A DNA stretch of 51,066 nucleotides. Origin: a virus. The translations under genes and the position numbers were made by a program. The notes beneath the pieces are model-generated. The model saw only the letters and a list, made by a program, of their open reading frames with translations, was not told the DNA's origin and ran no database searches. The stretch is taken from IMG/VR virus record IMGVR_UViG_3300031578_005720, positions 1-51,066 of that record; one strand, written 5' to 3'. The number at the start of each line of letters is the position of its first letter. The first letter of the stretch is position 1. Shown in pieces: positions 4,477 to 49,569 of this stretch.

Positions 4477-4634
4477 GTAAGTGGGAGGCTAGATGGCTAG
4501 AGGCAACAGAGGCGGGCAGCGACTACCTTCAACGTATCGTGTCGCACTTTGAACCGCAGGAAGAACCCGCGCAGTACAACGAGCAAGCAGATCACGAATA
4601 CGACCTACGTAGAGAGAGGGAGGAGAGGGAATGA
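4473..4634 (+). CDS. Small acidic protein, 53 aa
   Basis: This short gene lies between the two paralogous Cys/His genes, with ATGA overlaps at both ends. It codes for a highly charged helical peptide (starts MSKWEARWLEATEAG, ends RREREERE). No family is recognised. Both overlap junctions support translation. Confidence 0.55.
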   Translation: MSKWEARWLEATEAGSDYLQRIVSHFEPQEEPAQYNEQADHEYDLRREREERE

Positions 4635-4900: not shown

Positions 4901-4909
4901 GGAGGAATG

Positions 4910-6424
4910 ATGACCAACTGGAGCAACCTACTTGACCCGTTCGGTAGGGCATTACTCAAGAGGCTGGGCACTGACCCAGACAACCTACCAACGAACCGCA
5001 ACCCCATCACCCAGGCCCTAAGGAATCCTGGGTTCGTTACGGCTATCGAGAACATGGATGGTTTCAACCGTCGAGCACTGGCACGTGTGGCCACTGTGTG
5101 CCAGATGAGTGTGTTCGATGCCGCGGGTGGCCCTGAAGGGGACAACCAACCGAAGGCACTTCGTCGGCACTGGTATGCTTGGTGGAAGCCTTACTTCGCA
5201 CAGCCGTTTGCGTTACAGTTAGGCGACTTCGAGACGAATGCACAGGGTGTACAAGAGATCAAGGACCAGAACTGGGTACAGATGCTCTCCCAGATATATG
5301 GGGAGTTCGTAGACACCTGCATGGTTACGTACCAAGACTTGTGGGTGGAGGACGCTTCCCGAATGATGCAGGACTTCCACACGGTGCTCTTCAAGGGGTG
5401 TCACATCATCATCGCAGTCGAGAAGGACAGCCTCTTCAGCGACTTCCTTGCGCCTGCACAGGCCTTGGGAGCGAAAGCAGTTTACTCAGGTAAGGGAAAG
5501 TCCTCCAAAGCGGGTATCGAGAGGCTGCTGCGCGATCACTTCGGTTGGACAGAGCACAATCAGCCCTTCACACCAGCGCGTCCGCTTATCGTCCTGCACA
5601 TCTCGGACTACGACTATGACGGAGAGACTGTGATCGGTCCGACATTCGGGACGCAGGCGAGACGCTATGCGGACGACGTCAGGGAAGCACGTGTCGGCAT
5701 TCAGCCAATGCATGTCACAGACGAGGGCCTGTCACTTCCAGACAAGTGGTACCGTGTCAAGGTTGGGAACCGTGCTTACATGGAGTGGGCCACCTTCAAG
5801 GCATTACACCTCGCAGAGTGCTTTGAGGAGAGCTGTGGAGCGCGATGGCCGGTTGTCGGGAACGCTGCAGGCTACTGCCCGACGTGTTCCTCGGCAAACT
5901 GTGGTGTGTACCTTGGAAAGGGGATACCACATCACGGACTGGAAGTAGAAGCCCTACGCACGAGAGTGTACTACGGTCTACTCGTAGATGCTCTGCTACA
6001 AGTCCTGCCGTTCGACTTCATCGTAGGGAGGTTACGTGATGAGTGCATCGCGGACTACATATCAGCAGCAATACGTGTCCAGGGTGACGTACTTGCAGGC
6101 AACGATTCGTACAAGAAGCTGCTGGAAGAGTTCATCCGCCTGAACGTCATCAAGAAGGAGTTCGAGGAGCGGGTGCAATCCACGTTGGAGGAGACCGGAA
6201 AGCCACACGTGTCGGACTGGCGTGACCTTGAGGACGACCCAACGCCAGGCGTGTACCGCGAATACGTGTCCAAAGCTCAGAAGGGCACTAGCGTGTGGCG
6301 TCCCTTCAAGCGTGGCAAGCGTACCGCACAGCTTGTGCAGTGGCTACGAGAGAACGCGAAGGATACCCTAGACGCACTCAAGAAGGAGGCAATCGAGTGG
6401 AAGACAAACACAGACGATTCCTGA
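4910..6424 (+). CDS. Topoisomerase VI A / Spo11-like TOPRIM protein
   Basis: The product is about 504 aa. Numbering from the first of two adjacent ATGs (4907), a winged-helix part near residues 80-150 has LRRHWYAWW, in which Y90 aligns with the RDxxY catalytic tyrosine of Spo11/Topo VIA, and later TYQDLWVEDASR. The TOPRIM part has an acidic site at E172 (VEKDSLFSDF), GKGKSS near 195, and SDYDYDGE at 233-240, equivalent to the DxD metal site. Five cysteines at 305-332 (C, C, CPTC, C) form a likely zinc ribbon inserted in or after TOPRIM. Such enzymes break DNA by a transient tyrosine link. No GHKL B subunit is visible here, as in stand-alone mini-A homologues. The start at 4910 gives better spacing from GGAGG. 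Confidence 0.7.
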   Translation: MTNWSNLLDPFGRALLKRLGTDPDNLPTNRNPITQALRNPGFVTAIENMDGFNRRALARVATVCQMSVFDAAGGPEGDNQPKALRRHWYAWWKPYFAQPFALQLGDFETNAQGVQEIKDQNWVQMLSQIYGEFVDTCMVTYQDLWVEDASRMMQDFHTVLFKGCHIIIAVEKDSLFSDFLAPAQALGAKAVYSGKGKSSKAGIERLLRDHFGWTEHNQPFTPARPLIVLHISDYDYDGETVIGPTFGTQARRYADDVREARVGIQPMHVTDEGLSLPDKWYRVKVGNRAYMEWATFKALHLAECFEESCGARWPVVGNAAGYCPTCSSANCGVYLGKGIPHHGLEVEALRTRVYYGLLVDALLQVLPFDFIVGRLRDECIADYISAAIRVQGDVLAGNDSYKKLLEEFIRLNVIKKEFEERVQSTLEETGKPHVSDWRDLEDDPTPGVYREYVSKAQKGTSVWRPFKRGKRTAQLVQWLRENAKDTLDALKKEAIEWKTNTDDS

Positions 6425-8123: not shown

Positions 8124-8740
8124 TGCAGAAAGTCTTCTTCACTGCAGACGACCACTTCGGCCACACGAACATCATCAGACACTGTAAGAGGCCGTTCAGG
8201 GACGCCTACGCGATGGACCAGGCCCTGGAAGATGCATGGAACGCCCCAGTAGGTCCTGACGACGTAGTGTACCACCTGAGCGACTTTACCTTACAGGGGT
8301 GGCTCGAGGCAAGCAACTACTTCGCACGCCTGAACGGACGTATCAAAGTTCTGAGAAACATAAGTCACCACGACAAGAGGTGGCTAGAGATGCTCAGGAA
8401 CGCCGACTCGTTAAACTGTGCTGCCGGCTGGCCTGTTAGCGCCAGCGGGCACCCGATCGAACTGATGGAGCCCCAGATAACACTGGAGATCGATGGGAAG
8501 GTCATAGTACTTAATCACTTCCCTATGGCTAGTTGGGACAGGAAGCACCGGGGAGCTTGGCACCTCTACGCACACACACATGGCAGGTTCGAGGATGTGG
8601 GACTGATGATGGATGTTGGCGTCGACGCCGTAAGCAAGTACGGCTTGCCCCCATACGCACCAGTACCACTTAACGCTGTAAGGAAGATCATGCAAAGGAG
8701 GATCGAGAAGAATGGCTCCTGGGATCGTTTGTCTTACTAG
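8120..8740 (+). CDS. Calcineurin-like metallophosphoesterase
   Basis: The product is 206 aa, or 205 if it starts at the ATG at 8123. It shows the metallophosphoesterase metal motifs in order: DDHFGH near the N-terminus, YHLSDF, HHD after LRNIS, LNHFP and AHTHG. The usual GNHD motif is changed to NISHHD, which keeps the Asn and the HD pair. Phage relatives are predicted phosphatases or phosphodiesterases on nucleotides or nucleic acid ends. The gene overlaps padR by a GTGATG junction and queC by 29 bases, so the three are probably co-expressed. Confidence 0.85.
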   Translation: MMQKVFFTADDHFGHTNIIRHCKRPFRDAYAMDQALEDAWNAPVGPDDVVYHLSDFTLQGWLEASNYFARLNGRIKVLRNISHHDKRWLEMLRNADSLNCAAGWPVSASGHPIELMEPQITLEIDGKVIVLNHFPMASWDRKHRGAWHLYAHTHGRFEDVGLMMDVGVDAVSKYGLPPYAPVPLNAVRKIMQRRIEKNGSWDRLSY

Positions 8741-9443
8741 TGGGGGTATCGACTCCACTACAATGCTCTACTGGCTACGCAAGTGGCGCCCGCAGTACTT
8801 GCCGCTTGTCGCGCTGTCCGTCACGTACGGTCAGAAGCACAACAAGGAGGTGATTGCCGCTGAGAAGATCGCGAACGCTGCCGGCGCACAGTTCAGGTCA
8901 GTTGACATCAGTGGTGTGGGTGCACTTCTCAAAAGTGCTTTGACAAGAGACTACATCGAGGTGCCAAAGGATGAGTACACTAGCGCCACCCTGGCACAGA
9001 CGGTAGTGCCTTCCCGCAACTTGTTGTTCCTGGCCCTTGCAGCGGGGCTAGCCACCTCACTCGACATGCACCGTGTTGCAATAGCGGTGCACGCAGGGGA
9101 CCACCCCGTCTACCCGGACTGCAGGCCGGCGTTCCTGCATGATGCTGAAGGGGCACTCCAGCACTACGACCGCCTGATGACAATCTTCGCCCCGTTCAAG
9201 CACGTTCCCAAGGAGGGGATCGTTCTCGTTGGTCTTGAGCTCGGTGTACCCTTCGAGTTAACGTGGAGCTGCTACGAGGGGAATGAACGTCCGTGCCTTA
9301 GGTGCTCCACATGCGTAGAGCGTACAAAGGCCTTCATGAGTTGCCACACGACGGACCCAGCGCTTAGCCGGGCGGAGTGGTCTGTAGCTGTAAGCGTCGT
9401 GCGCACCAAGCAGCCCGGGGAGCAACTTCGTTTCGAACTCTAG
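8712..9443 (+). CDS. queC: 7-cyano-7-deazaguanine (preQ0) synthase QueC
   Basis: QueC converts 7-carboxy-7-deazaguanine to preQ0 using ATP and ammonia. The 243-aa length is normal. The PP-loop SGGIDST is at residues 10-16, VPSRNLLFL at 99-107, and the zinc site is C187, C195, C198 and C201 (CxxxxxxxCxxCxxC). The start is an ATG after AGGAGG inside the end of the phosphoesterase gene. It is separated by 16 kb from the queD-queE-folE group, yet together they form the complete route from GTP to preQ0. There is no N-terminal amidotransferase fusion, so this is a plain QueC. Confidence 0.95.
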   Translation: MAPGIVCLTSGGIDSTTMLYWLRKWRPQYLPLVALSVTYGQKHNKEVIAAEKIANAAGAQFRSVDISGVGALLKSALTRDYIEVPKDEYTSATLAQTVVPSRNLLFLALAAGLATSLDMHRVAIAVHAGDHPVYPDCRPAFLHDAEGALQHYDRLMTIFAPFKHVPKEGIVLVGLELGVPFELTWSCYEGNERPCLRCSTCVERTKAFMSCHTTDPALSRAEWSVAVSVVRTKQPGEQLRFEL

Positions 9444-10621: not shown

Positions 10622-11635
10622 ATGACATACTACGTACACATATCCGACATACGTGCGTTCCAGAACTGTCGCGTACGTTGGCACTTTTCGAGTCCCCACA
10701 GGATGAACTTCGAGCCACGTGTTCCCTTCACGCCGTTCTTCCTCGGTCGTGGGGTGCATAAGGCCCTCGAAGACCACTATAGCGAGGGCATACCTGCTGC
10801 TACCGCGTTCATTAGGTGGACCGCGACAGCAGTGCTCGAGCTTGAAGATGTCGAGATGTCCGACGACAAGCGCGCGGAGCTCATGGAGAGCGTTGTGCTT
10901 GGTGCTGGCATGTTAGCCCACTACGATATGTGGAGTGCAGCACGAGATGCGGAGTTCAAGATGCTCCGGCCTGAGTATACGATCCACGTGCCTTTGGGCT
11001 TTAGTGTGGATGGTAGGGAGGTCTTCTTCGCGGGCCGAGCCGACGGTGTTGTTGAGGACACCAAAGGAGACCTCTGGCTGAAGGAGTTCAAGACAACCGC
11101 TCAGATGGGTAGCTTCAATCTCGAGTACGATAGTCAAGCATACGCCTACCTCCAGGCTGCCAGAATCTCCCCGGACTTTCCGATTCCAGATCGCAAGCCT
11201 GTAGGTACCATCTTCACGTTCCTACGCAAGAAGGTTCCCAACCGCCCGGACGTGATCACTCGTGGGCTGTCGAAGAACAAGCGACAGGGCACCTCTTACC
11301 ACTACTACATGAAGGAGATCGTGGACAGGGGCCTGAACCCTGGAGACTACACGGAGATCCTCGCGCACCTTAAGGAGAATGTACCGTATTTTGTCCGCGA
11401 GAGGCTCCGTCCATCGGGTCACGCGCTACAGATTCAGTGGGAGAACCTACACAAGGTTGCACGCGAGATGCTGGATCCGCATGTTCCAATCTATCCCAAC
11501 ACCTTTGGGTGGCAGTGTAAGAGCTGTATCTTCAGGGAACCTTGTCAAGCCGTATGGCGCGGTCTGGACCCCTGGCCACTGCTACAGACCGACTACCGCG
11601 TAAGACCCTCAAGTGCTGAGGAGGTAGAGGAATGA
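10622..11635 (+). CDS. PD-(D/E)XK nuclease, Cas4/RecB-like, with Fe-S cysteines
   Basis: The 337-aa product has the RecB-type nuclease motifs: GRGVH near 42-46, GRADGV with D141, EFKTT with E155 and K157, and the QxxxY motif at Q172 (SQAYAYLQA). Four cysteines, C16 near the N-terminus and C300, C303 and C309 in QCKSCIFREPC, are placed as in Cas4 and AddB, where they hold a 4Fe-4S cluster. The family degrades or trims DNA ends, often 5' to 3'. It is followed by Sak4-like and SSB-like genes, so a role in end resection for recombination is likely. The Sak4 gene overlaps its stop (ATGA). Confidence 0.87.
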   Translation: MTYYVHISDIRAFQNCRVRWHFSSPHRMNFEPRVPFTPFFLGRGVHKALEDHYSEGIPAATAFIRWTATAVLELEDVEMSDDKRAELMESVVLGAGMLAHYDMWSAARDAEFKMLRPEYTIHVPLGFSVDGREVFFAGRADGVVEDTKGDLWLKEFKTTAQMGSFNLEYDSQAYAYLQAARISPDFPIPDRKPVGTIFTFLRKKVPNRPDVITRGLSKNKRQGTSYHYYMKEIVDRGLNPGDYTEILAHLKENVPYFVRERLRPSGHALQIQWENLHKVAREMLDPHVPIYPNTFGWQCKSCIFREPCQAVWRGLDPWPLLQTDYRVRPSSAEEVEE

Positions 11636-12447
11636 CAGACGTAGAAGTTCTGGCTCTCGAAGACATAGATGTTGAGGAGTCTGAACCAGAACCAGAACCA
11701 GAGCCGGCGCAGGAGAAGATGTCTCAGAACATTCTCTCGACGCATCCCCCACATGTGGACGCGCGCTTCCTGAGTGTTCTGATCACGGGGCAGCCTGGGG
11801 TAGGCAAGACAGTGCTCGCATGCTCAATCTGCGACCTCCCGGAAGCACTCCCTGTGCTTGTGCTTGACTGCGATGGGGGCCTAATGAGTGTCAGGGACAA
11901 ACCCCTACAGGTCCATACGATGACGCAGACCTCGGCACTCGACAAGGTCATCTGGGCCTATAAACAGGGAAAGGCCCCATGGGGAACGGTTGTCCTAGAC
12001 TCCCTGACCGCATACTACCTTATGCTTCTCGAGGAGATAGGCAGAAAGAGAGGTGGACAGAGAGACGAACCAAACCAACTACAGGACTACCAGAAGGCAC
12101 TGATCATGGCGCGGAGACAGATCCGGCAACTTATCGCTTGTCCCTGTCACGTCATGGTCCCCGCGCTGGAGTACACCCAGCAGGACGATCTCACATCTAC
12201 AGTCAGAACGGCCCCGGCCGTACCTGGTAAGTTCGCGTACGAAGTAGCCAAGTACTTCGACATTCACGGGAACCTGATTGTAGCCATGAAGGGGAAAGAC
12301 CGCTCACGTGTGCTGACAGTTCAACCGTCAAGGCGGTTCCAAGCCAAGGACCGGACTGGGCTCTTCGAGGACGAAATCGTCTCCCCGAATATGAGCCAGA
12401 TAGTAGCCGAGTATATCGGCAAACTCAATCCCCAAAAGGAGAAATAG
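11632..12447 (+). CDS. Sak4-like RecA-fold ATPase (AAA_24)
   Basis: The 271-aa product has Walker A GQPGVGKT at residues 53-60 and Walker B TVVLDS at 119-124. Its layout, a short RecA core without the RecA N-terminal domain, matches phage Sak4/AAA_24 proteins, which anneal or pair single-stranded DNA with help from an SSB. An acidic Glu-Pro repeat precedes the core at residues 17-26. It overlaps the nuclease gene and is followed after 2 bases by a DUF669-like SSB gene, the usual partner of Sak4. Confidence 0.85.
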   Translation: MTDVEVLALEDIDVEESEPEPEPEPAQEKMSQNILSTHPPHVDARFLSVLITGQPGVGKTVLACSICDLPEALPVLVLDCDGGLMSVRDKPLQVHTMTQTSALDKVIWAYKQGKAPWGTVVLDSLTAYYLMLLEEIGRKRGGQRDEPNQLQDYQKALIMARRQIRQLIACPCHVMVPALEYTQQDDLTSTVRTAPAVPGKFAYEVAKYFDIHGNLIVAMKGKDRSRVLTVQPSRRFQAKDRTGLFEDEIVSPNMSQIVAEYIGKLNPQKEK

Positions 12448-12869: not shown

Positions 12870-12898
12870 GACCCTGATACTCAAGAGGAGTGCACCCG

Positions 12899-15439
12899 GT
12901 GGAACTGGCCTTTTTTACACTGCTATTCCGGGGCCTCCGTCCTGACGAGTATGTTGCCATCAAGGCCCTATCAGGGGGGAAGGCCACACACTACTACCCT
13001 AAAAGCCCCAGAGAGATCGTCGATCTCGTGGAGAGACTACATCTTCCAGGGGTTAACTTGTACTTCGGTGTCTGCCCGCGGAATGCGTGTGCGGCAACGA
13101 AGGAGGCCGTATCCCGCGCCTTGTGTGTGTGGCTTGACCTAGACGTCAAGGACCACCAGGAAGGGAAGAAGGAACTTCTAGAGTACGTACGCGCAACGTA
13201 CGTCTTACCTCCGACGGCTGTTGTTGATTCCGGTAACGGCCTCCATGTATATTGGAGTCTCCGAAGCTCAACGACGCGGAACACTGCGGAGGTACTAGCG
13301 AAGAGTATGGCAGGCCATCTCAAAGGAGATCGGGCTGCAACAGACTCATCTAGGTTCCTTCGTGTTCCGGGTACAACCAACTGGAAGGATCCGGAGAAGC
13401 CCCTCCCGGTGGTCCTTGTGACGTTACAAGAGGAAAGGCAATACACACCAGACGACCTGAAGGCAGGCTTCAACGTACCTGCATCGCTCATCGAGCGTAT
13501 ACACACGGGAAGCACAGAAGGATACGAATCTAGGTCAGAACGTGACTGGGCAGTAGTGCGTGCTCTCATCAGGGCAGGGATCAAGGAAGACGACGTACTT
13601 ACCCTGTTCTCCGAGAACCCGATTGGCGATAAGCTTCGGGACGCATCGCCGCAGGGCGGCGAGACATACTTCGCCCGCACCCTAGAACGTGCTACAACGA
13701 GTGCACAGGTACCAGCGACCTTTACGGAGGTACACGATTGCTACTACCTACCGGATCGTGAGAAGCAGCGACAGGTCTCGACGTTTGTATACAAGCCGAC
13801 CCGCCTACTTGAAGGCCCTGGGGGAGATATACTATCTGGTACGATGAAGGCCTCCGGGTACACGTGGCCAGATGTGGCACTAACCCGCGCGGCCTTCGCA
13901 GGCAGTTCCGCTTTGATCAGAGAGCTACCGTACGCAGCATGGCAGTGGCTTGGATCTGATCGCGAAGCGAAGATGCTGCTTCCACATCTCATGCAACAAT
14001 TACTGGACGTCGGGCTACCAAGAGCGGTAGCAACACACACGATCGGCAGACACGAAGACTACTTCGTGACTGCTGATCGCGTGCTCACGGCTGACAGTGT
14101 GCTTTCGCCTGAGGAGGCTCCGTACCAGTACGTACCAACAGGACGTGAAGCCCCAGAGATCACAATCACGTTCCCGTCCGCAGATAACTATCGTGCGTTA
14201 CTACGTGACATTGCAGAACTGCTGCCGAAGGTAAATGTGCCTCACGTAGTGTTCCCAGTGTTTTCGTGGTTCATGGCAGCACCTTACAAAACTGTACTTA
14301 AGGAGCGTTGTTCAACGCGCTTCCCGACACTCAACATATACGGTACACGTGGGGCTGGCAAGACGAGTTTGCTACTTGAGATAATGCAGCCTTTGTTAGG
14401 GTGCACACCACACTCGTACTCATGTGCCACAACACCCTTTGTGCTTCTCTCGTTGCTGGCGAGTACGAACTGCATCCCGATAGCGTTCTCGGAGTTCCGG
14501 AGTTCATCGCTATCCGAACAGACGTACTCGAAGCTCATGCGGTATATCCTACTTGCATACGACGTAGGTCGCGATGCGCGAGGAAGACCAGACCAAACGA
14601 CAACCATCTATCCTCTTGATGCACCCTTTTCAATAGATGGCGAAGACGCCTTAGGAGAACCTGCGGCCATCGAGCGTGCGATCATCGTAAACCTGGCGCC
14701 AGAGAACATCATGCAGGGTTCGGAAGCGTTCGACGCTTTTCAGAAGATCACGAAGCTTCCTCTGAAGGACTTCGCAGGGCACTATCTGCAGCACACGCTC
14801 AAGTTCGACGTTCATCTGGCCCTGGAGGAAGCACATGCGATTGTGCGCGGAGCTCTTTCCCGCACACTGCCTGACAGGGTGTACAATAACCTTGTTGTCT
14901 GTGTCGTAGGATACATAAGCGTACTGCAACACTTCGCTAACTGGGGCGTCGCGTTACCAGATATCGACGCTACATCCTTCGGGTGTTGGTTTGACGCGCC
15001 GACGCAAGATGCAGTTGCCATGGAGCGTGGACGCACGGCAATGCACGTCGACGAGTTCATTACGGATGTCATCAACGCCGTTGCCAGCTCAGGTACCACA
15101 GAAGTGTTCATGTTCAAGTACAAGAGGACACAGAACGAGCTCTGGTTCCACACGGCCACCGCGGTTAGGTGGTGGTTCGCGAAACGTAGACGCGAAGGGC
15201 TCCCAGCCATAGGCGAGCTCGCTGTGAAGCGCCAGCTAAGAGAGCGTGCCATAGGAGACATCCCAAGTCCAGGACAGTACTTAGTTGGGAGTACTACACA
15301 GAACATAGGGGGCAAGAGCATACACATGTGGGGCATTAGTGTGCAGGCCGCGTACGATTGCGGGTTGGACATCCCACAACAACTCGACATCCAGCATGTG
15401 ACACTTAGCTTTACGTCCCAGGGCAAGGAGGACGAATGA
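12899..15439 (+). CDS. Primase-helicase (AEP primase fused to a P-loop ATPase)
   Basis: The product is about 846 aa. The N-terminal third is an archaeo-eukaryotic-type primase: NLYFGVCPR near 53, catalytic WLDLD with D80 and D82, DSGNGLHVYW at 110-119, and RFLRVPGTTNWK near 152. A PriCT-like helical linker follows (SERDWAVVRALIRAGIKEDDV). The C-terminal half holds a P-loop ATPase with GTRGAGKTS at about 482-490, as in phage and plasmid replicative helicases. It would make primers and unwind the fork. GTG at 12899 is chosen because AAGAGGAG lies 8 bases before it; a GTG at 12890 overlaps that site. The transporter gene follows closely. Confidence 0.82.
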   Translation: MELAFFTLLFRGLRPDEYVAIKALSGGKATHYYPKSPREIVDLVERLHLPGVNLYFGVCPRNACAATKEAVSRALCVWLDLDVKDHQEGKKELLEYVRATYVLPPTAVVDSGNGLHVYWSLRSSTTRNTAEVLAKSMAGHLKGDRAATDSSRFLRVPGTTNWKDPEKPLPVVLVTLQEERQYTPDDLKAGFNVPASLIERIHTGSTEGYESRSERDWAVVRALIRAGIKEDDVLTLFSENPIGDKLRDASPQGGETYFARTLERATTSAQVPATFTEVHDCYYLPDREKQRQVSTFVYKPTRLLEGPGGDILSGTMKASGYTWPDVALTRAAFAGSSALIRELPYAAWQWLGSDREAKMLLPHLMQQLLDVGLPRAVATHTIGRHEDYFVTADRVLTADSVLSPEEAPYQYVPTGREAPEITITFPSADNYRALLRDIAELLPKVNVPHVVFPVFSWFMAAPYKTVLKERCSTRFPTLNIYGTRGAGKTSLLLEIMQPLLGCTPHSYSCATTPFVLLSLLASTNCIPIAFSEFRSSSLSEQTYSKLMRYILLAYDVGRDARGRPDQTTTIYPLDAPFSIDGEDALGEPAAIERAIIVNLAPENIMQGSEAFDAFQKITKLPLKDFAGHYLQHTLKFDVHLALEEAHAIVRGALSRTLPDRVYNNLVVCVVGYISVLQHFANWGVALPDIDATSFGCWFDAPTQDAVAMERGRTAMHVDEFITDVINAVASSGTTEVFMFKYKRTQNELWFHTATAVRWWFAKRRREGLPAIGELAVKRQLRERAIGDIPSPGQYLVGSTTQNIGGKSIHMWGISVQAAYDCGLDIPQQLDIQHVTLSFTSQGKEDE

Positions 15440-15492
15440 ACAGTTCTTTGAGGGTCACCATACCAAAAAGGATGTGCACTGGAGGGCACACA

Positions 15493-16179
15493 ATGTTCGG
15501 AAATCACAGCAGCAAGCAAAGTAACAGGCTGATCTGGACGGTCGTTGCGCTGGTAGCTGCGTACATCTCACTGCAAGTGTTCGCAGATATCATGGCGACG
15601 AAGATGGTAACGGTCTGGAAGTACGTCGTTCCAGGCGGCACGTTGGTATACGCCTTCACGTTCACAGTACGTGACCTCGTACACAAGAAGCTGGGCAAGC
15701 GATGGGCCCAAGCGTGCATCGTGGTCGCCGGCGCAGTGAACGTCTGCATGGCGCTTTTCTTCCTGTGGCTTGTGAAGATGCCCTTCCCGCCCTTCTGGGC
15801 GAACCAGGAAGCCCTCACGGCCATACTGCAGCAAGTTCCGCGGATCGTGTTGGCTAGTATCGCCGCCGAGATGGTGAGTGAGTTCGTCGACACAGAAGTT
15901 TACCAACTGGTCTGGAAGAAGCTGGGCAGGCGTTACCAGTGGGCACGCGTAGCGGCTAGCAACGGCGTCAGTGCGCCCTTAGACAGTATTGTCTTCGCCC
16001 TGCTTGCGTTCGGCGGCGTATTTCCGACCGCTGCGCTCGTGGAGATGATCATAGGCCAAGTACTGCTGAAGTGGCTGATTGGTCTGATCTCACTACCAAC
16101 GATCTACCTCGTCAAAGAGGGGAAGGGAGTGGAGGTAATCAATGTTGAATGTCGAAAAGCAGCTTGCTGCACAGATTGA
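15493..16179 (+). CDS. yhhQ: Queuosine-precursor transporter, YhhQ/VUT family
   Basis: The product of about 228 aa is a polytopic membrane protein with roughly six hydrophobic segments. It has the family's features: a first helix followed by SLQVFADIMATKMV, a conserved TFTVRDLVHKKLGK loop, IAAEMVSEFVDTEVY and SNGVSAPLDSIVFALLAF. Members import preQ0, preQ1 or related bases. The ATG at 15493 is chosen because GGAGGG lies seven bases upstream; an earlier ATG at 15436 overlaps the primase stop and would add a polar tail. Phage copies occur with 7-deazaguanine genes, which fits the que and dpdA genes nearby. Confidence 0.88.
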   Translation: MFGNHSSKQSNRLIWTVVALVAAYISLQVFADIMATKMVTVWKYVVPGGTLVYAFTFTVRDLVHKKLGKRWAQACIVVAGAVNVCMALFFLWLVKMPFPPFWANQEALTAILQQVPRIVLASIAAEMVSEFVDTEVYQLVWKKLGRRYQWARVAASNGVSAPLDSIVFALLAFGGVFPTAALVEMIIGQVLLKWLIGLISLPTIYLVKEGKGVEVINVECRKAACCTD

Positions 16180-16501
16180 GGCAGCGTTCGAGGAGTCAAG
16201 ACAAGCCCTCATGGTTTCCGCAGACGTACTGTGGAAGGGTAAGGGTGAGGCATACGACACCGAGGTGAGCATCGTGCAGCGCCTCCCGCTCGGGGAGATG
16301 AGCCTCGTGCATGAGCTCGTTAAGAAGACGCGGCGCCTACAGGGTGAGTTCGCCACTGGCGTACTCGAGTCCCTGATGTCGGAGACGGTTGAGGAGCAAC
16401 TCCTGGACGTCGCCAACTACGCAATCGCACTCGCCGCGTACATGAGAGTCACAAAGAGGCTGTCCGAAGTGACTCTCCAGCTTAAGAAGACTACTACGTA
16501 G
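16142..16501 (+). CDS. DUF1599 / nucleotide-modification-associated domain protein
   Basis: The 119-aa helical protein resembles DUF1599 (Nmad1): a helix with VLWKGKGEAYD, then HELVKKTRRLQG, then VEEQLLDVANYAIALAAY. The Glu and Asp of EEQLLDVANY match the MazG-like metal site. The domain is found beside DNA-base-modification genes in phages. It lies between the precursor transporter and the DpdA-like gene, which fits that link. It overlaps the transporter gene by 38 bases and has GGAGG before its ATG. Its exact reaction is unknown. Confidence 0.68.
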   Translation: MLNVEKQLAAQIEAAFEESRQALMVSADVLWKGKGEAYDTEVSIVQRLPLGEMSLVHELVKKTRRLQGEFATGVLESLMSETVEEQLLDVANYAIALAAYMRVTKRLSEVTLQLKKTTT

Positions 16502-16510
16502 CCACACTGT

Positions 16511-16544
16511 GTGTAGGCTGTACTCACCGGGGTACAGCCTACAC
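16511..16544 (+). promoter_or_regulatory. 13-bp perfect hairpin before the dpdA ribosome binding site
   Basis: GTGTAGGCTGTAC at 16511-16523 pairs perfectly with GTACAGCCTACAC at 16532-16544, with an eight-base loop. The stem ends three bases before the AGGAG of the DpdA-like gene. There is no U-tract. It could be an attenuator, an RNA processing or stability element, or a translation control. Confidence 0.55.
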
Positions 16545-16560
16545 TCCAGGAGACAAACAC

Positions 16561-17334
16561 ATGAAGGCCGCAATTATTGCGCCTACCGCAATGCTCGAGA
16601 GGTACTCGACGCTTACGGACACCCACCTCGCTCTCGCACACCTTGTGCTTAGCAATAAGACGTACAGGGAGTTCTACAAGGGACGCGCTGCAAAGGGGGA
16701 CTTCGTCACTGTTGATAACTCCCTAATTGAGCTGGGGGAGCCACTGCCCTTGGAAGACGTAATTAGGGCTGCTAAGATGATAGATGCCCAGGAGATCGTC
16801 CTGCCGGATGTCTTCGCGAACTGCGTGGAGACCCTCAAGGTTACCATGGCCGCATATAGAGAGATTGTGGCGTCACCTGACCTCACGCGCTTCAAGTGGA
16901 TGGCTGTGCCACAGGGAAGAAACGCCCTGGGCTGGTTCTACAGCTATTGGGTGTTCAGCAAGCTTCCCGAGATCACCACGATCGGCATCGCGAAGCACAC
17001 GGAAAGGTTTAGCAAGGGAGGCCGGCCAGCACTACTGGGTGCGCTCGCAACAACCGAGTCCTTGGCGGTTGAGAAAGCTCACCACCTCTTGGGTTGCTGG
17101 AGCAACCCGACTGAGGTCCTCAAGTGCTCCAAGCGCTTCAGGTGGCTGCGGAGCGTAGACTCGAGCATCGCAGTGCTTGCCGGTCTCGAAGGTAAGCCTT
17201 TCCCCGACCCCATTCGTGGTATCGAGTTCGAACGGCCGGAGAAACCGATGGACTTTGACGCAGTAGACGACCCACACCCAAACATCACAATGAGGAACGT
17301 AAAGCTCTTCATCAGGTGGAGCAGAGGAGTATAA
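16561..17334 (+). CDS. dpdA: DpdA-like 7-deazaguanine DNA transglycosylase (TGT superfamily)
   Basis: The 257-aa product looks like the TGT-like barrel of phage DpdA. Such enzymes swap guanine in DNA for preQ0 or preQ1, as TGT does in tRNA. Candidate active-site residues are D52 in VDNSLIELGE, D83 in IVLPDVF and D200 in RSVDSSIAV; AVPQG at 115-119 and HLLGCW at 175-180 match conserved strand ends of the barrel. It lacks the C-terminal zinc domain of bacterial TGT, as expected for DpdA. With queC, queD, queE, folE and a precursor transporter in the same genome, DNA modification is the most economical role. AGGAG lies eight bases upstream of the ATG. Confidence 0.8.
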   Translation: MKAAIIAPTAMLERYSTLTDTHLALAHLVLSNKTYREFYKGRAAKGDFVTVDNSLIELGEPLPLEDVIRAAKMIDAQEIVLPDVFANCVETLKVTMAAYREIVASPDLTRFKWMAVPQGRNALGWFYSYWVFSKLPEITTIGIAKHTERFSKGGRPALLGALATTESLAVEKAHHLLGCWSNPTEVLKCSKRFRWLRSVDSSIAVLAGLEGKPFPDPIRGIEFERPEKPMDFDAVDDPHPNITMRNVKLFIRWSRGV

Positions 17335-17338
17335 TAAG

Positions 17339-19642
17339 ATGGTCAAGTTACCGCACGCGCGTTGTGGTAGTTGTCCTCTAAAAGACACGCCTCTAGTACC
17401 CGGCGAAGGTCCTGTGAAAGCAGAGTTCGTTCTGGTAGGAGAGGCCCCAGGTCGCGAAGAGGCAAGCGCCCGTAGACCTTTTGTAGGACAGGCAGGCAAG
17501 CTGCTGGATAAGATTCTTGTTGGTCTGGGAATTGATCGCGAGGAGCTGTACATAACAAATGCCATCGCATGTGGCGGTACGACGACGACATACAAGGAAG
17601 CCGCACCCTACTGTCGTGACCGATTGTTAGCGGAGATTGACGGTCGCAAGCCACGTGTCGTAGTAACCTTAGGAAACTTACCCACCAGCGTACTTCTAGG
17701 CCCGAGCTATGCGACAGGCGTTACGAACTACCGGGGCAAGTTTGTAATGCACGATGCCCTCAACTGCTGGGTGTTGCCAACGCTTCACCCAGCCGCTGTG
17801 CTACGCAGGCCGAGTACGTTCGACGACTTGTGTGCAGACTTACAGAAGGCGTTTACTACAACGGAATACGAACCGAAGCCGTTTAAGTGGTACGTCTGTC
17901 AGACGGGGCAAAACGCCCTCGTTGTACTTGACCACATCTACGACAAGGAGACGGAGGTCGTCTTCGATCTCGAGACATCAGGCTTCAACAGGCAGGAAGA
18001 TGACATCCTATGTTTGGTCCTCTGTTGGCGTTCGGACCTAAGCTACGTCATTCCACAGGGGGTACTGGAGCAACCTGCTGTGCAAGCGCGCTTGTGCACC
18101 CTTATGGTGGAGCGCCCCGACATCAAGTGGATCGGGCACAGCGCAAAGTTCGACGCAGAGTTCCTGAAGAGCCGTTACGGCTTCCGTCCTGTGATCTACT
18201 TCGACACACTTTTGGCACACTACTGCACAGAGGAGCGGAGCGGTACGCACGACCTCAAGAGCATTGCGGCGAACCTCTTCAACGCACCCGACTGGGAAGG
18301 AGACCTAAAGCAGCACCTCAAGAAGCCGCGTACAGACTCATATAGTATGCTCCCGAAGGGTGTGCTGTATAAGTATGCCGCACACGACGGAATCTACACG
18401 TACCTTCTGTATCGCCATTTCCAGGGGGTTCTGGCTAAGGAGCCTAAGCTCAAGAAACTACATGACGATCTCCTCGTACCAGCGGCCAATGCGCTCGTGG
18501 ACATCGAGCTCTATGGAGTGCGTGTCGATCCTGCACACCTCAAGCAGTTGGAGAAGGACTACGCTAGAGATATCGAGGACTTGGGAGCACAGCTGGAGGT
18601 CGCTGTCGGTAGGCCAATCAATGCGAACTCCCCGAAGCAGGTCGCTGAGTACCTGTACGACGAGTTACAGCTGCCCCAACCCTTCGGGCGTACAACAAAA
18701 AAGGAAGCAATGGAGATTCTCGCTCCAATGCACCCTGTGCCGCAGATGATCGTCGATATTCGGCATGCAAAGAAGATGCTCAAGACATACGTTATTGGTC
18801 TGCAGGAGCTTGCAGACAAGCACGACCGTGTACACACGTCGTTCCTCCTTCATGGCACGACGACAGGAAGGCTGTCCTCCCGTGGCCCGAACCTCCAGAA
18901 CATTCCGCGTGGGCAGAAGTTACGTGACTGTTTCATTGCCTCAGAAGGACACACCCTAATCGATTGCGACTATGGTCAGCTTGAGTATCGCATTCTGGCT
19001 GTGCTTGGTAACGACGAGTACATGCTCAAGTGTTTCCGTGAAGGTCGAGACTTCCACACGGAAACTGCACTCCTCTTCTTCGGGGAAAACCACACAAGTG
19101 AAGACCGAATGATCGCTAAGATGGTGAACTTCGGTATTGCCTATGGACGCGGCGCAGCAAGTATGGCTGCTGACCGTAACCTGAACATGACATTCCGTGA
19201 GGCACAGGCGTTTCTACGTAGTCTATTCGACCAACGTCCTGGCGTAGCGCGATATACGCGGGAGACACCCAAGAAAGCATTCACCACTGGAGTACTCGAG
19301 AGCTTCTTCGGGCGCAAGCGTCGCTTCGGTCTTGTCTCTGGGGTCAACATGAAGGAAGTCAAGACCCAGGCGCTCAACTTCCCAATACAGAGCCTGGCGT
19401 CGGACATCACACTCATGTCGCTGCTCTACCTACATGATACTCTGGAGCACGCACGTATCCTGTTGACCGTTCACGACAGTATCCTGCTCGAAGCTCCCGA
19501 TGAACACGTGTATACCGAGGCATCACGTATCAAGAAGGTAATGGAACTGATTCCACGGAAGCGCTTCAGCGATGTCGTCGATTTCCCGGTCGATATAAAA
19601 GTCGGTAAATCATGGGGGAACATGTCAGAATGGGCTCCCTAA
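17339..19642 (+). CDS. polA: Uracil-DNA glycosylase / family A DNA polymerase fusion
   Basis: The 767-aa protein has three parts. Residues 1-175 are a family 4 uracil-DNA glycosylase: C9, C12, C78 and C92 for an Fe-S cluster, GEAPG at 34-38, RPFVGQAGKLL, and HP at 150-151. Residues 200-360 are a 3'-5' exonuclease: FDLETSG with D210 and E212, GHSAKFD with D272, and YAAHD with Y346 and D350. Residues 370-767 are the polymerase: TGRLSS, motif A DYGQLEYRI with D544, motif B KMVNFGIAYG with K594 and F598, and motif C TVHDSI with D713. All catalytic residues seem intact, so it is the likely replicative polymerase with built-in uracil detection. Confidence 0.95.
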   Translation: MVKLPHARCGSCPLKDTPLVPGEGPVKAEFVLVGEAPGREEASARRPFVGQAGKLLDKILVGLGIDREELYITNAIACGGTTTTYKEAAPYCRDRLLAEIDGRKPRVVVTLGNLPTSVLLGPSYATGVTNYRGKFVMHDALNCWVLPTLHPAAVLRRPSTFDDLCADLQKAFTTTEYEPKPFKWYVCQTGQNALVVLDHIYDKETEVVFDLETSGFNRQEDDILCLVLCWRSDLSYVIPQGVLEQPAVQARLCTLMVERPDIKWIGHSAKFDAEFLKSRYGFRPVIYFDTLLAHYCTEERSGTHDLKSIAANLFNAPDWEGDLKQHLKKPRTDSYSMLPKGVLYKYAAHDGIYTYLLYRHFQGVLAKEPKLKKLHDDLLVPAANALVDIELYGVRVDPAHLKQLEKDYARDIEDLGAQLEVAVGRPINANSPKQVAEYLYDELQLPQPFGRTTKKEAMEILAPMHPVPQMIVDIRHAKKMLKTYVIGLQELADKHDRVHTSFLLHGTTTGRLSSRGPNLQNIPRGQKLRDCFIASEGHTLIDCDYGQLEYRILAVLGNDEYMLKCFREGRDFHTETALLFFGENHTSEDRMIAKMVNFGIAYGRGAASMAADRNLNMTFREAQAFLRSLFDQRPGVARYTRETPKKAFTTGVLESFFGRKRRFGLVSGVNMKEVKTQALNFPIQSLASDITLMSLLYLHDTLEHARILLTVHDSILLEAPDEHVYTEASRIKKVMELIPRKRFSDVVDFPVDIKVGKSWGNMSEWAP

Positions 19643-20205
19643 AACGTTGTAGTAAGTGTAAGGAAACGAAGCCGCATACGGACTTCCACAAGAACCGCTG
19701 CACCTTGGACGGGCTGCAGGACTGGTGTAAGACATGCTTCCGCAAGGGTCAGCAGACGAAAAAAGGACGCGAACGTCAGTGGCGTGCAAACCACTCAGAG
19801 AAGGGGCGCGCTACACATGAGCGCTACCTAGGTTCCGAGAAGGACAAAGTAGTCCGTAGGCGCTATGAGGCATCCGAGAAGGGACGTGCTGCACGTAAGC
19901 GTTTCAATGCGACTAAGAAAGGTCGCGCGATGTATCAACGTAGCTGCGCCAAGAGACGTGCGGTGCTTGAGGGTTCTGAAGCGACCTTGACTGCAGAAGA
20001 GTGGTCCGAGATCAGAGCAGAATACAAGTGTTGTCCGTACTGTGGAGAGCTGTTTACGGGGGAGCCCGAGATGGACCATATTGTGCCAATATCAAGAGGG
20101 GGTACACACACGGCAGACAACGTTGTGCCTGCGTGTATGTCCTGTAACAGGAGCAAAAGCGACAAAACCGTAGAGGAATGGCAAGATGGCCAAGAAGCGC
20201 TGTAG
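19630..20205 (+). CDS. HNH endonuclease with zinc finger and 13-residue repeats (second copy)
   Basis: The product of about 191 aa has the same layout as the first HNH protein: an N-terminal finger (KRCSKCKETKPHTDF, WCKTC), five basic 13-residue repeats at residues 40-104 (such as YEASEKGRAARKR), then CPYCG, MDHIVPISRGG and DNVVPACMSCNRSK. The ATG at 19630 is favoured, with GGGGGAA upstream; it overlaps the end of the polymerase gene. HNH genes next to phage DNA polymerase genes are common for homing endonucleases. Confidence 0.88.
   Translation: MGSLKRCSKCKETKPHTDFHKNRCTLDGLQDWCKTCFRKGQQTKKGRERQWRANHSEKGRATHERYLGSEKDKVVRRRYEASEKGRAARKRFNATKKGRAMYQRSCAKRRAVLEGSEATLTAEEWSEIRAEYKCCPYCGELFTGEPEMDHIVPISRGGTHTADNVVPACMSCNRSKSDKTVEEWQDGQEAL
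19747..19941 (+). repeat. Five tandem 39-base units coding 13-residue repeats
   Basis: Units such as ANHSEKGRATHER, YEASEKGRAARKR and FNATKKGRAMYQR follow each other without gaps between the zinc finger and HNH domain. They match the repeats at 633-866 but number five instead of six. Confidence 0.75.
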
Positions 20206-20596
20206 TACCTGTAGGCAAGCAAAACCTCTAAGTGAGTTCCCGCTGGACAGACAGAAACCTGACGGGTATGGGTACATATGTCACGTGTGCAAGAAGGAGA
20301 AGAACGCGTCAGCTGCTGGACGCACCTCAGACAAGTTTCATAAAGCCAAAGCGCGCGCACGTCGTGGGGGTGCACGTAAAATGCGCCTAAACGATCGACA
20401 GTGGAAGAAGATCTGCACAGAAACTACACACTGTCCTCACTGTGGTGGGGAGTTTAGTGACGAGCTCCCACCAACGATCGATCACATTGTACCACTCAAC
20501 CGCGGAGGGCAACACGTGCGAGACAACGTGCAAGCCCTATGTATGTCGTGTAACTCGCGTAAGAAGGACAGCCTTGAGGAGGAGCTATTGAGGTGA
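20186..20596 (+). CDS. HNH endonuclease (third, short form)
   Basis: The 136-aa product has an N-terminal CxxC...CxxC finger (CSTCRQAKPLSEF, CHVCKK), a basic linker without the 13-residue repeats, and an HNH core (HCPHCGGEF, IDHIVPLNRGG, DNVQALCMSCNSRK). It overlaps the previous HNH gene by 20 bases. It is probably another mobile or accessory nuclease. Confidence 0.88.
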   Translation: MAKKRCSTCRQAKPLSEFPLDRQKPDGYGYICHVCKKEKNASAAGRTSDKFHKAKARARRGGARKMRLNDRQWKKICTETTHCPHCGGEFSDELPPTIDHIVPLNRGGQHVRDNVQALCMSCNSRKKDSLEEELLR

Positions 20597-25827: not shown

Positions 25828-25885
25828 AACACCGGAGTCCCTTCAACAGCGCACAGGAGGCACAATATGTACTACGCTGCAATGA
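25601..25885 (+). CDS. Hypothetical protein, 94 aa, TTG start
   Basis: TTG at 25601 lies about six bases after GGAGG. The product looks well formed (KPYLAIAFPRGPALWKDVLIVVLDQEDL) with beta strands and a basic tail. A TTGA overlap here would match the coupling style if the upstream gene were in the other frame. No family is recognised. It overlaps queD by 19 bases. Confidence 0.6.
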   Translation: MIYIERFGNVWKLGKDDAKKRVKPYLAIAFPRGPALWKDVLIVVLDQEDLTIAPDVRLVRIDGFKSYDKRTFQLAETPESLQQRTGGTICTTLQ

Positions 25886-26265
25886 CGTTCGAACTGTCGG
25901 TCGCACATAGGTTGGGGGACATGCCTGTGGAGCACAAGTGTCGTAGGCTGCACGGACACAACCTTGAGGTCACAGTAGAGATTGGCGCTGAGGAGCTTGA
26001 TGGGCTAGGATTCGTAATCGAGTTCGCAAAGCTCCGAGAGGTATTCGATAGCAGTGTGTCACAGCGCTTGGATCACGGATGCATCAACGAGACCCTACTA
26101 GACTCACCCATGATGGTTGCGCAGCCCACAGCGGAGCGTCTTGCCGAGTGGATCACGCACACGCTATCGGCGTACCTACCCCAACCCGGCAGGTTTAGAG
26201 GAGTCCATGTATCTCGTGTGGACGTTCGGGAGACTCGACACGCCACAGCCTCCTACGTACCATAG
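25867..26265 (+). CDS. queD: 6-carboxytetrahydropterin synthase QueD
   Basis: QueD makes 6-carboxy-5,6,7,8-tetrahydropterin from dihydroneopterin triphosphate. The 132-aa length is normal. The zinc ligands H14 (SVAHRL), H29 and H31 (LHGHN) and the catalytic C25 are present, with D69-H70 in QRLDHG and E122 in the C-terminal RETRHATA. AGGAGG precedes the ATG. It is followed by an SH3-like gene and then queE, and belongs to the preQ0 pathway with folE and queC. Confidence 0.93.
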   Translation: MYYAAMTFELSVAHRLGDMPVEHKCRRLHGHNLEVTVEIGAEELDGLGFVIEFAKLREVFDSSVSQRLDHGCINETLLDSPMMVAQPTAERLAEWITHTLSAYLPQPGRFRGVHVSRVDVRETRHATASYVP

Positions 26266-26267
26266 TG

Positions 26268-26525
26268 ATGAACGACGACGAGATTCTCGAAGCGCAAGTA
26301 CCACCCCTTTATTCACTGACGGTGACGACAGATGTCCTGAACGTGCGTGAGGCACCTACTCTAGATAGTAGGGTGCGTGGTAAGTTACATGCCGGAGATC
26401 ACATCAGAGAGTGGGCCCAGCACCGTTACGGAGTGTGGCGCTACGTGGATAGCGGTACTCTCACCGGCTGGGTACATGGAGCGTATCTGAAGAACTTGTT
26501 TGAACCTGTGGGGGGTGTGACATAA
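26268..26525 (+). CDS. Stand-alone bacterial SH3 domain protein
   Basis: The product of about 85 aa is a single SH3_3-type domain: VLNVREAPTLDSRVRGKLHAGD, then WRYVDSG and GWVHGAYLKN. Such domains bind cell-wall peptides or other ligands, usually as part of a larger lysin. Here there is no signal peptide or enzyme domain. It could also start at GTG 26265. It lies between queD and queE with overlapping ends, so it is co-translated with the preQ0 genes, which is unusual. Confidence 0.72.
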   Translation: MNDDEILEAQVPPLYSLTVTTDVLNVREAPTLDSRVRGKLHAGDHIREWAQHRYGVWRYVDSGTLTGWVHGAYLKNLFEPVGGVT

Positions 26526-27139
26526 TGAACATCGATACTATCTATCCGACGTTTCAGGGGGAGGGGACTTGGACAGGTCTTCCCGTTGTGCTTGTTCGAA
26601 CGTATGGCTGTAATGGGGTATGCCCATTCTGTGACACGCCTGGGGGCCCAAGCGCGATGGAGATGAGCGTGGTGCAGGTTGTGAAGGAGTGCAACCGACT
26701 TCGCGAAGATTATCCGTACCTACAGCATATCCTCTTGACCGGCGGCGAGCCAGGGCTTGTTGGCGTGGTGGAGCTGGAGGAGTTCTACCTTGAAGCCAAC
26801 GAGGCTGGTTGGGGGGTGCATGTTGAGTCGAATGGGACGCTCTCGCTAGGGTACGACATTAGACCCTTCTGGGTGTGCGTTAGTCCGAAGCCCGCATATA
26901 CACCACCCCTCGACGCTATCGAGATGTACCTTGCGGATGAGATCAAGCTTGTCTATGAGGGTGTGGGCTCTGAGGTGATGCTGGCAGCGTTTCTCAGGGA
27001 CTTCAGAATCACACGTGAAAAGGTCTGTATCCAGCCCTTGTGGGACGACGGGGAGCTTCAGGCGGAGGCCGTTGCCTTCGCTATGAGGCAAGGTTTCAGA
27101 CTGAGCTTTCAAGTACATAAGTACTTGGGATGGAAATAG
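26525..27139 (+). CDS. queE: 7-carboxy-7-deazaguanine synthase QueE (radical SAM)
   Basis: QueE is a radical SAM enzyme that converts 6-carboxytetrahydropterin to 7-carboxy-7-deazaguanine. The 204-aa product has the 4Fe-4S motif C29xxxC33xxC36 (CNGVCPFCDT), the upstream PTFQGEGTWTG, and the SAM site LTGGEP at 71-76. The C-terminus has SFQVHKYLGW, a family signature. The start overlaps the stop of the SH3 gene by one base. The length is typical of compact QueE forms. Confidence 0.94.
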   Translation: MNIDTIYPTFQGEGTWTGLPVVLVRTYGCNGVCPFCDTPGGPSAMEMSVVQVVKECNRLREDYPYLQHILLTGGEPGLVGVVELEEFYLEANEAGWGVHVESNGTLSLGYDIRPFWVCVSPKPAYTPPLDAIEMYLADEIKLVYEGVGSEVMLAAFLRDFRITREKVCIQPLWDDGELQAEAVAFAMRQGFRLSFQVHKYLGWK

Positions 27140-27150
27140 GAGAGTATACG

Positions 27151-27756
27151 ATGACTGAGACTTATGTACAGCAGTACAACTTAAACGCCAGCGTCGTACA
27201 GCACCTGACTGAGGCTTTTAGTATCCTGGACATACACGACCCCAAGGATCCTCACACAGGGCGTACTCCGCAGAGGTTCGCAAGGTATCTACAGTACCTA
27301 AAGGAAGGCGAGCTTGAGGAGTACCGCCTGACAACCTTCCCGAACGCGAATCCCAGGATCGATCATATGGTGGTTGTGCCAAACATCACATTCTGGAGCG
27401 CATGTGCCCACCACACTCTACCATTCATGGGAACAATCAGCGTGGGGTACATCCCGGACGAGCAGGTTATTGGACTTAGTAAAATTCCGCTCCATGCACG
27501 TGCGGTTGCACGGGGATTCTGGCTGCAGGAGCATCTCACGCACTGTATTGCGAATGACCTCATGAGTGCACTTGATCCTCTAGGCGTCGCCATACAGATT
27601 CGGGCACAACACACGTGTCAGCTTCTGGACGTCAAGCAGCCACCAATTCCCGAGATGATCACGACCGTCCTAATGGGAGTGTTCCATCCAGACAGCGGCT
27701 TAACAGGTCCACGTGACGAGTTCTTCGCAGCAGTGCGCCCGGGGGGTAGGGTATGA
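27151..27756 (+). CDS. folE: GTP cyclohydrolase I (FolE)
   Basis: FolE opens GTP to 7,8-dihydroneopterin triphosphate, the first step toward preQ0. Numbering from 27151, the zinc ligands are C85 and H88 (SACAHHTLPF) and C156 (QHTC), with GLSKIPLHARAVARGFWLQEHLT and GRTPQRFARYL as further signatures. The start is taken at 27151 because AGGAGA lies eight bases before it; a GTG or ATG at 27130 lies inside queE. It completes folE-queD-queE-queC in this genome. Confidence 0.94.
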   Translation: MTETYVQQYNLNASVVQHLTEAFSILDIHDPKDPHTGRTPQRFARYLQYLKEGELEEYRLTTFPNANPRIDHMVVVPNITFWSACAHHTLPFMGTISVGYIPDEQVIGLSKIPLHARAVARGFWLQEHLTHCIANDLMSALDPLGVAIQIRAQHTCQLLDVKQPPIPEMITTVLMGVFHPDSGLTGPRDEFFAAVRPGGRV

Positions 27757-27884
27757 ATATGAGGCACGAGTATGCCCTAGTTTGGTTGTTCGTATCACTA
27801 GTACTTGTCTTTCTAGGGCTACTAGTAGTAGCAGCCGCAGTCGCAGTCGCAATCTTGTCGTTCTTTGGAAGTCCAGCAATCTAG
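27753..27884 (+). CDS. Small single-pass membrane protein, 43 aa
   Basis: It starts in an ATGA overlap with folE and is the last plus-strand gene. The peptide is almost all one hydrophobic helix (ALVWLFVSLVLVFLGLLVV) after a short polar start. Its TAG lies in the CTAG that also forms the stop of the convergent minus-strand gene. No family is recognised. Confidence 0.52.
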   Translation: MNMRHEYALVWLFVSLVLVFLGLLVVAAAVAVAILSFFGSPAI

Positions 27885-32100: not shown

Positions 32101-32694
32101 GTAGCCTGTGTTAGCGTAGTCCGAGACGTTGACCATCCAGTCCTTGTACCATACGGTTTGGTGAGAGCGCGCAGCATCGGCCTTGTATAGCCACCAATCG
32201 CAGTTGTTAACTATTTGCCAGTGGTAGCCCCTAACCTGAAAGGCCCCAGTGCTTCCAGAGTATTTGCCCCAGTCAGCTGTTTCCCATCCAGCAGGCATGT
32301 AGACAAACAGTTTTAGGTTTGGGTTCTGCTGCTTGAGATACGTGCAAATCCCAGGAGATGCGGTGTCCGTAAATGCCCCGGATTGCAGTTCCACGATATG
32401 ATACATGGTTGCAATAGAGCGTTGGGGTGTCCAATCTCCCCAGCGAAGCCATGTTAGATAGAGCCTGGGAAACTTGTGTGCTGGCCAAGGCCCACCGCCA
32501 GGCGTGCCCGCCCCGGTTAGCATGGCAGCGTCTTCAGGTCGCATCCAGTGCACAACGCCTTCAGAGTAACCCTCTTCCGTTGGCGCCAGGATGGGCGTGG
32601 GAGTATGCGGAGGCGTGCAAGAAAACAACGCACTGCCGACCACTACAGCGGCTACAACAAACAACAGTATGAGCGCGAGCAGTTGTTTACGCAT
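29185..32694 (-). CDS. Exported GHL15-like glycoside hydrolase with two lectin-like domains
   Basis: The 1169-aa product starts with a lipoprotein-type signal ([22 protein letters not shown]26). Residues about 45-540 resemble the GHL15 putative glycosidase barrel: [14 protein letters not shown], then [13 protein letters not shown] with a likely catalytic Asp near 225, and [14 protein letters not shown]. Thr-Pro linkers at about 540-581 and 798-918 flank two LamG/lectin-like domains (about 590-795 and 920-1155) related to each other and to the lectin domain in the next gene. AGGAG precedes the ATG. It probably binds and cuts cell-surface polysaccharide. Such linkers are typical of secreted Chloroflexota proteins. 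Confidence 0.75.
30091..30240 (-). repeat. Thr-Pro linker repeats (ATYTPTPT units)
   Basis: Three AATYTPTPT or EATYTPTPT units with [11 protein letters not shown] spacers form a repetitive linker in the GHL15-like protein. On the plus strand the repeat reads as GGCGTAGGCGTAT-like blocks that create false open frames. Confidence 0.75.
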
Positions 32695-32703
32695 GGTGAA
32701 CTC

Positions 32704-49567: not shown

Positions 49568-49569
49568 GT

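Follow-up and report, generated by a model that had tools for sequence, protein, structure and literature searches.

Does a phage that encodes a relative of the topoisomerase VI (Topo VI) A subunit and of Spo11, the initiator of meiotic recombination, with a cysteine cluster in its sequence and no ATPase partner in view, possess a DNA-cleaving enzyme that works alone, and what would such an enzyme do? The question is raised by one gene of a 51,066-base phage contig, IMG/VR virus record IMGVR_UViG_3300031578_005720, which was analyzed over its whole length and is called the window here. Assignment of the product to the class of stand-alone Topo VI A/Spo11-type cleavers is very probably correct. 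The fuller reading, in which it is an ATPase-free, tyrosine-dependent double-strand DNA cleaver of the Spo11/Mini-A type that probably serves phage replication or recombination, is the one we favor, with moderate confidence; the role in replication or recombination, taken by itself, is an evenly balanced call.

The gene and its viral relatives

The ORF opens with two consecutive ATGs, at 4907 and 4910. Because a GGAGG ribosome-binding sequence upstream (4901-4905) favors the second ATG, 4910 is the likelier start, in agreement with the first-pass annotation of this DNA. Residue numbers, there and here, count from 4907 (Y90, C305-332), which gives 505 aa; on this count the annotated motif positions (LRRHWY at 85-90, VEKD at 171-174 and SDYDYDGE at 233-240) proved right. 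The features of the gene are as follows.

4907..6424 (+): whole gene, stand-alone Topo VI A/Spo11-type protein with a zinc ribbon, 505 aa
4907..5059 (+): N-terminal helical region, residues 1-51; helices in the predicted model
5060..5356 (+): presumed winged-helix (5Y-CAP) region, residues 52-150; Mini-A alignment and Foldseek match to 1d3y (275 columns)
5162..5176 (+): R86-RHW-Y90, conserved arginine and presumed nucleophilic tyrosine; invariant in 47/47 proteins
5351..5362 (+): D149-A-S-R152, counterpart of the Mini-A D-x-x-R motif; invariant in 47/47
5360..5956 (+): TOPRIM domain, residues 152-350, split by the zinc ribbon; Z 8.3 to 1d3y over model residues 152-366
5420..5428 (+): E172-K-D174, TOPRIM glutamate; 47-protein alignment
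5606..5614 (+): D234-Y-D236, TOPRIM DxD, predicted metal site; 47-protein alignment
5810..5929 (+): predicted zinc ribbon, residues 302-341; Cys305, 310, 324 and 327 conserved, Cys332 not
5942..5956 (+): E346-V-E-A-L350, last TOPRIM motif, counterpart of Mini-A ELDAL; alignments
6005..6421 (+): helical C-terminal extension, residues 367-505; helices in the model, far longer than that of Mini-A

Just upstream of the gene, a near-identical contig, L001 (4607-4691), has 99 extra bases relative to about 4568-4583 of the window, flanked by a short repeat, GCGCAG; the window's strain probably lost them through a deletion mediated by this repeat.

Searched alone, the window protein gave no credible match in Pfam, PHROGs, PDB sequences, named phages or plasmids, and PF21180 (Topo VI TOPRIM) found no match in the window record. 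Matches to Sinorhizobium plasmids lay on the opposite strand of an aldo-keto-reductase-like ORF, and a match to Serratia phage Parlo fell in a small ORF at E 9; both were dismissed as chance. Single-sequence patterns run against IMG/VR returned one 100% copy of the protein and nothing else credible, and a tighter DNA pattern returned the same copy. Two scans of the genomes of 84,980 bacterial and archaeal species, the second made with alignment A1, yielded no relative, within the limits that short patterns set on such scans.

A DNA pattern combining EKD and D-x-D at the right spacing retrieved at least 119 viral stretches, and one of them (L049) encodes a relative 55% identical to the window protein. 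Alignment-based iterated scans brought the relatives to seven, 36-59% identical, in seven other viral contigs including L049; one is truncated by the contig end, leaving seven full-length clade members with the window protein counted. The final iterated scan found no further clade relative, one relative (P0002) had no match in named phages, and the profile of alignment A3 had no credible match in PDB sequences. The clade forms a small branch, apparently undescribed so far, of a phage enzyme group that is known but unstudied. Since relatives occur in seven other viral contigs and the motifs stand in register in 39 Mini-A proteins (below), the features seen in the gene are more than chance.

Kinship with Mini-A and Topo VI A

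Most of the other stretches retrieved by the pattern encode proteins of about 300 aa. All five of those scanned matched phrog_6247, 'DNA topoisomerase' (E 6.3e-60 to 9.2e-110), and one was 45% identical to the 'DNA topoisomerase' of Pseudomonas phage NP1 (E 2e-61), a protein named Mini-A in the figure legend of a review (PMC7614492). On these three grounds we identified the set as Mini-A. Passages of the same review describe Mini-A as truncated Top6A homologues of archaeal viruses and bacteriophages, passages of another source as an ancient viral homologue of Topo VI A/Spo11 (PMC11302465), and passages of a third call its function unknown (PMC8084294). Motif filters applied to the stretches passed 110 ORFs, 89 of which also passed a stricter filter; these 89 were thinned to 40, and 39 entered alignment A4 (L107 was left out). 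The 47-protein alignment comprises the eight clade members and 39 Mini-A proteins. A Mini-A gene in another contig (L118:5183-7243, +) appears to carry an intein-like insert of about 320 aa just before the EKD motif.

Profile-profile comparison of the clade with the phrog_6247 group by hhalign gave a probability of 89.6, an E-value of 1.9e-6 and a score of 55.7, against a best probability of 1.0, a lowest E-value of 0.052 and a highest score of 23.4 in 30 column-shuffled controls. The confident part of the match spans residues 165-299. Unguided L-INS-i alignment placed five motifs of the clade and Mini-A in order and in register: LRRHWY/LRQLYY, VEDASR/IEDRSR, VEKD/IEKD, SDYDYDG/GDHDPSG and EVEAL/ELDAL. 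At the level of single sequences the distance is large. The window protein is 13-18% identical to Mini-A in the 47-protein alignment and had no match to phrog_6247 at E<=10, and that profile was matched weakly by two of the eight clade members (best E 0.07).

Ten residues (R86, Y90, D149, R152, E172, K173, D174, G197, D234 and D236) are invariant in 47/47 proteins, and E346 is present in every one of the 46 rows that extend to its position. E172-D174 and D234-D236 were partly selected for by the search pattern; R86, Y90, D149, R152, G197 and E346 were not. The clade and Mini-A therefore share the catalytic tyrosine, the TOPRIM acids and the order of the motifs, and both are stand-alone and phage-encoded. 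They differ in build: Mini-A proteins have about 300 aa (the phrog_6247 profile has 303 positions), whereas full-length clade members have 496-546 aa, and the zinc ribbon and long helical C-terminus belong to the clade. Its N-terminal region, with the tyrosine at residue 90 in the window protein, is probably also longer than in Mini-A, where N-terminal lengths are uncertain since a script chose as start codon a Met close to the tyrosine motif. We conclude that the clade is a sister subfamily of the phage Mini-A proteins; the window protein is not classed as Mini-A itself, as its size and its failure to match the family profile set it apart from that family.

The spacing of R86 and Y90, with the arginine four residues before the tyrosine, equals that of R102 and Y106 in Methanosarcina mazei Top6A. 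Parts of a structural study of that enzyme describe a metal site made of E202/D254/D256 with E342, and a clasp of R102 and E342 that keeps the winged helix off DNA (PMC13040014). Going by motif order, E346 is probably the counterpart of E342. Such a motif set favors covalent, topoisomerase-type cleavage, and the tyrosine motif and TOPRIM acid site read from this DNA in the first-pass annotation (Y90, E172, D234 and D236) are borne out by their invariance across both groups.

A structural model built from the 47-sequence alignment had a mean pLDDT of 89.9 and a pTM of 0.84; as its input held 39 Mini-A sequences, it is not independent of the proposed kinship. A single-sequence model (pLDDT 36) was useless. 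In a Foldseek search with the former model, the top three PDB rows were Topo VI A chains, two from 1d3y and one from M. mazei Topo VI (9o8p), with probabilities of 0.95-0.97 and a best E-value of 3.2e-3 (1d3y); these E-values are modest, none being below 0.001. Matches in BFVD were weak, with type II topoisomerases among them. VIA-align scored 1d3y at Z 8.3 (150 residues aligned) and TOPRIM chains of gyrase and Topo IV at up to 8.6; two further structures, 9o0g of M. mazei in the cleavage state and the Corynebacterium glutamicum nuclease MksG (8b7f, 137 residues), each scored 7.9. Its matches lay mostly inside model residues 151-368, and residues 152-367 were the only ones covered in a fifth or more of the rows.

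A TOPRIM fold with the conserved glutamate and DxD is thus well supported in the model. The winged helix is presumed from the sequence alignment and from the length of the Foldseek match to 1d3y, which has 275 columns against 289 target residues; it falls outside the stretch that VIA-align covers, about 152-366. Structure comparison has in this way upheld one of the two domains expected from the first reading of the sequence and left the other presumed, while the kinship with Topo VI A/Spo11 stands on the best solved match, the TOPRIM fold and the hhalign result. The window protein resembles Topo VI A (1d3y, M. mazei Top6A) and Spo11 in its best PDB match, its arginine-tyrosine spacing and its E / DxD / E site; it differs from them in having no B subunit on the virus, a ribbon between DxD and the last glutamate, and no PF21180 match at the sequence level in its record.

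The TOPRIM similarity to MksG is about equal to that to Topo VI A. It bears on a different reading, anticipated in the first-pass annotation as a JetD-like attack or anti-plasmid role, according to which the protein is a metal-dependent nuclease of the JetD/MksG/GajA type that acts through no covalent intermediate on host DNA, plasmids or rival phages. The TOPRIM domain is common to the window protein and these Wadjet and MksBEFG nucleases, and E346-V-E348 resembles two glutamates discussed for JetD/MksG in parts of one study (PMC10123090). The same parts, however, describe MksG as having no candidate tyrosine in its 5Y-CAP-equivalent domain, whereas the tyrosine of this region is kept in 8/8 clade members and 39/39 Mini-A proteins, together with R86. 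Moreover, in PADLOC the window protein matched no model and none of the eight clade members matched JetD, and the eight loci share no conserved partner gene. A nuclease of this type is accordingly unlikely, and the attack or anti-plasmid role is not supported. JetD entries were absent by name among the 50 VIA-align rows listed, which excludes nothing. PADLOC matches to Cas12f and PycC, in one clade member each (best E 0.001), were set down to chance, probably through zinc-ribbon-like stretches.

A zinc ribbon before the last TOPRIM motif

The window protein has cysteines at 305, 310, 324, 327 and 332. The first four are conserved in 7/7 full-length clade members and C332 is not; the first pair has the spacing CxxC in every such member except the window protein, where it is CxxxxC. 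Two cysteine pairs between DxD and the last glutamate were present in 7/7 full-length clade members and in 0/89 Mini-A proteins, and Pfam Zn_ribbon_8 matched three of the eight clade members (best E 0.00099). From DxD to this glutamate the clade has 105-132 residues, where the Mini-A median is 65 (61-126); past the glutamate another 151-172 aa follow in the clade, where the Mini-A median is 60. Of the five cysteines, four thus form a predicted zinc ribbon that defines the clade and is inserted before the last TOPRIM motif. The cluster at 305-332 singled out in the first-pass annotation is indeed a conserved insert that Mini-A lacks, and the new DNA-binding mode proposed there for it is possible. 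None of the papers matched in a literature search, judged by their titles and abstracts, describes a zinc-ribbon form of a Top6A/Spo11-type phage protein.

The ribbon protrudes immediately ahead of the E346-bearing strand. Because it adjoins this residue, the probable counterpart of the winged-helix clasp residue of Top6A, its position would suit it to binding DNA or a partner and to gating cleavage; we infer that it may have a gating or DNA-binding role.

Genome context and possible role

Models of three B-subunit or ATPase families (Topo-VIb_trans, HATPase_c_3 and HATPase_c) each matched in 0/9 virus records, the window and eight related ones; HATPase_c_3 and HATPase_c matched in 14/14 control genomes. 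The search for a GHKL/Topo VI B gene thus agrees with the earlier view of the protein as alone like Mini-A. These counts speak against an ordinary Topo VI-like enzyme in which the protein serves as A subunit and the host or another replicon supplies the ATPase B subunit, as does the description of Mini-A, in the passages cited above, as a viral Topo VI A/Spo11 homologue. On the other side stand the Topo VI A fold match and the scope of the search, which covered virus records; we regard a borrowed B subunit as quite improbable.

Topo VIII has a B-type ATPase part, whereas no B-type ATPase was found on the clade's nine virus records. The two are alike as divergent type IIB enzymes of mobile elements, the terms in which passages of one review place Topo VIII (PMC7614492).

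A conserved operon partner was also rejected, as no other gene was common to three or more of the eight clade loci. Two regions of the window provide context.

10622..12447 (+): Cas4-like exonuclease and Sak4-like annealing protein; kinds of recombination gene found near Mini-A in NP1
12890..19642 (+): primase-helicase and family A DNA polymerase (PolA) region

The window also encodes an SNF2-type helicase. The gene under study does not adjoin the Cas4/Sak4 genes, which follow about 4 kb downstream of it. In NP1, the Mini-A gene lies between the DNA ligase gene (with one small ORF intervening) and the Sak4 gene, with Cas4 exonuclease, helicase and primase genes nearby; in Roseobacter phage RDJL Phi 2, Mini-A follows the DNA polymerase, and in Haloarcula virus HCIV-1 its neighbors are unnamed. 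AAA_24 (Sak4-type) scored above cut-off in 7/9 clade records (two being one phage) versus 2/39 Mini-A records, the latter a subset of the 89 that omits, without a fixed rule, 11 of the 50 records used in the QueC test below. Of the seven matches in the clade, four score just 27-43 bits, and these proteins look like P-loop ATPases. As a link to recombination, the co-occurrence is suggestive.

As a stand-alone cleaver of the Spo11/Mini-A type, the protein would act as a homodimer, in which each active site pairs Y90 from one subunit, which attacks the DNA backbone, with the Mg2+ site of the other (E172, D234 and D236, with E346); the product would be a double-strand break with protein joined to the 5' ends. 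Since the virus encodes no ATPase subunit, cleavage would have to be controlled in some other way. The target would be the phage's own DNA, broken or passed through itself during replication and recombination, in partnership with the polymerase, Sak4 and Cas4 exonuclease that this genome also encodes. A more specific version, which we put forward as speculative, makes the protein a viral counterpart of Spo11: ATPase-free programmed breaks, gated by a ribbon that replaces control by Topo VI B, would start Sak4/Cas4-driven recombination-dependent replication.

The clade is divergent, keeps every catalytic residue and carries throughout a ribbon beside the presumed cleavage-control residue. The parts of the Spo11 module that it retains point to those required where there is no ATPase partner, and as a compact system of one protein it lends itself to tests of the control of type IIB cleavage.

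The window contains a 7-deazaguanine gene set (8712-9443, 15436-16179, 25867-26265, 26525-27139 and 27130-27756), whose products are QueC, a Vut_1-type transporter, QueD (PTPS), a QueE-like radical SAM protein and GTP cyclohydrolase I; the phage probably modifies its own DNA. This set would fit an enzyme that cuts unmodified host DNA while 7-deazaguanine shields that of the phage. NP1, the Mini-A example, belongs to the subfamily Queuovirinae, and a Xanthomonas phage is found in the QueC listing as well as in that of Mini-A. QueC was found, however, in 3/9 clade records, with one phage accounting for two of them, and in 0/50 Mini-A records (50 of the 89 with full motifs). A general link between Mini-A and 7-deazaguanine was rejected on the latter count, and we hold this shielding scheme to be highly improbable for the window protein.

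Further genes of the window were noted in passing. The family A DNA polymerase (17339-19642) is covered by phrog_17 over residues 30-765, and we take its N-terminal stretch, as we read the sequence, to resemble a family-4 uracil-DNA glycosylase. Three HNH-endonuclease-like ORFs (414-1127, 19612-20205 and 20186-20596), the first two with seemingly similar repeats, are probably homing genes. Surface- or tail-like proteins with long TPTPT linkers are encoded at 27881-33768; we assume this linker style to be like that of Chloroflexota, and perhaps a hint at the host. At the right end (46880-51065) lie ORFs whose predicted products are glycosyltransferase-like, UDP-glucose-dehydrogenase-like and sugar epimerase-like.
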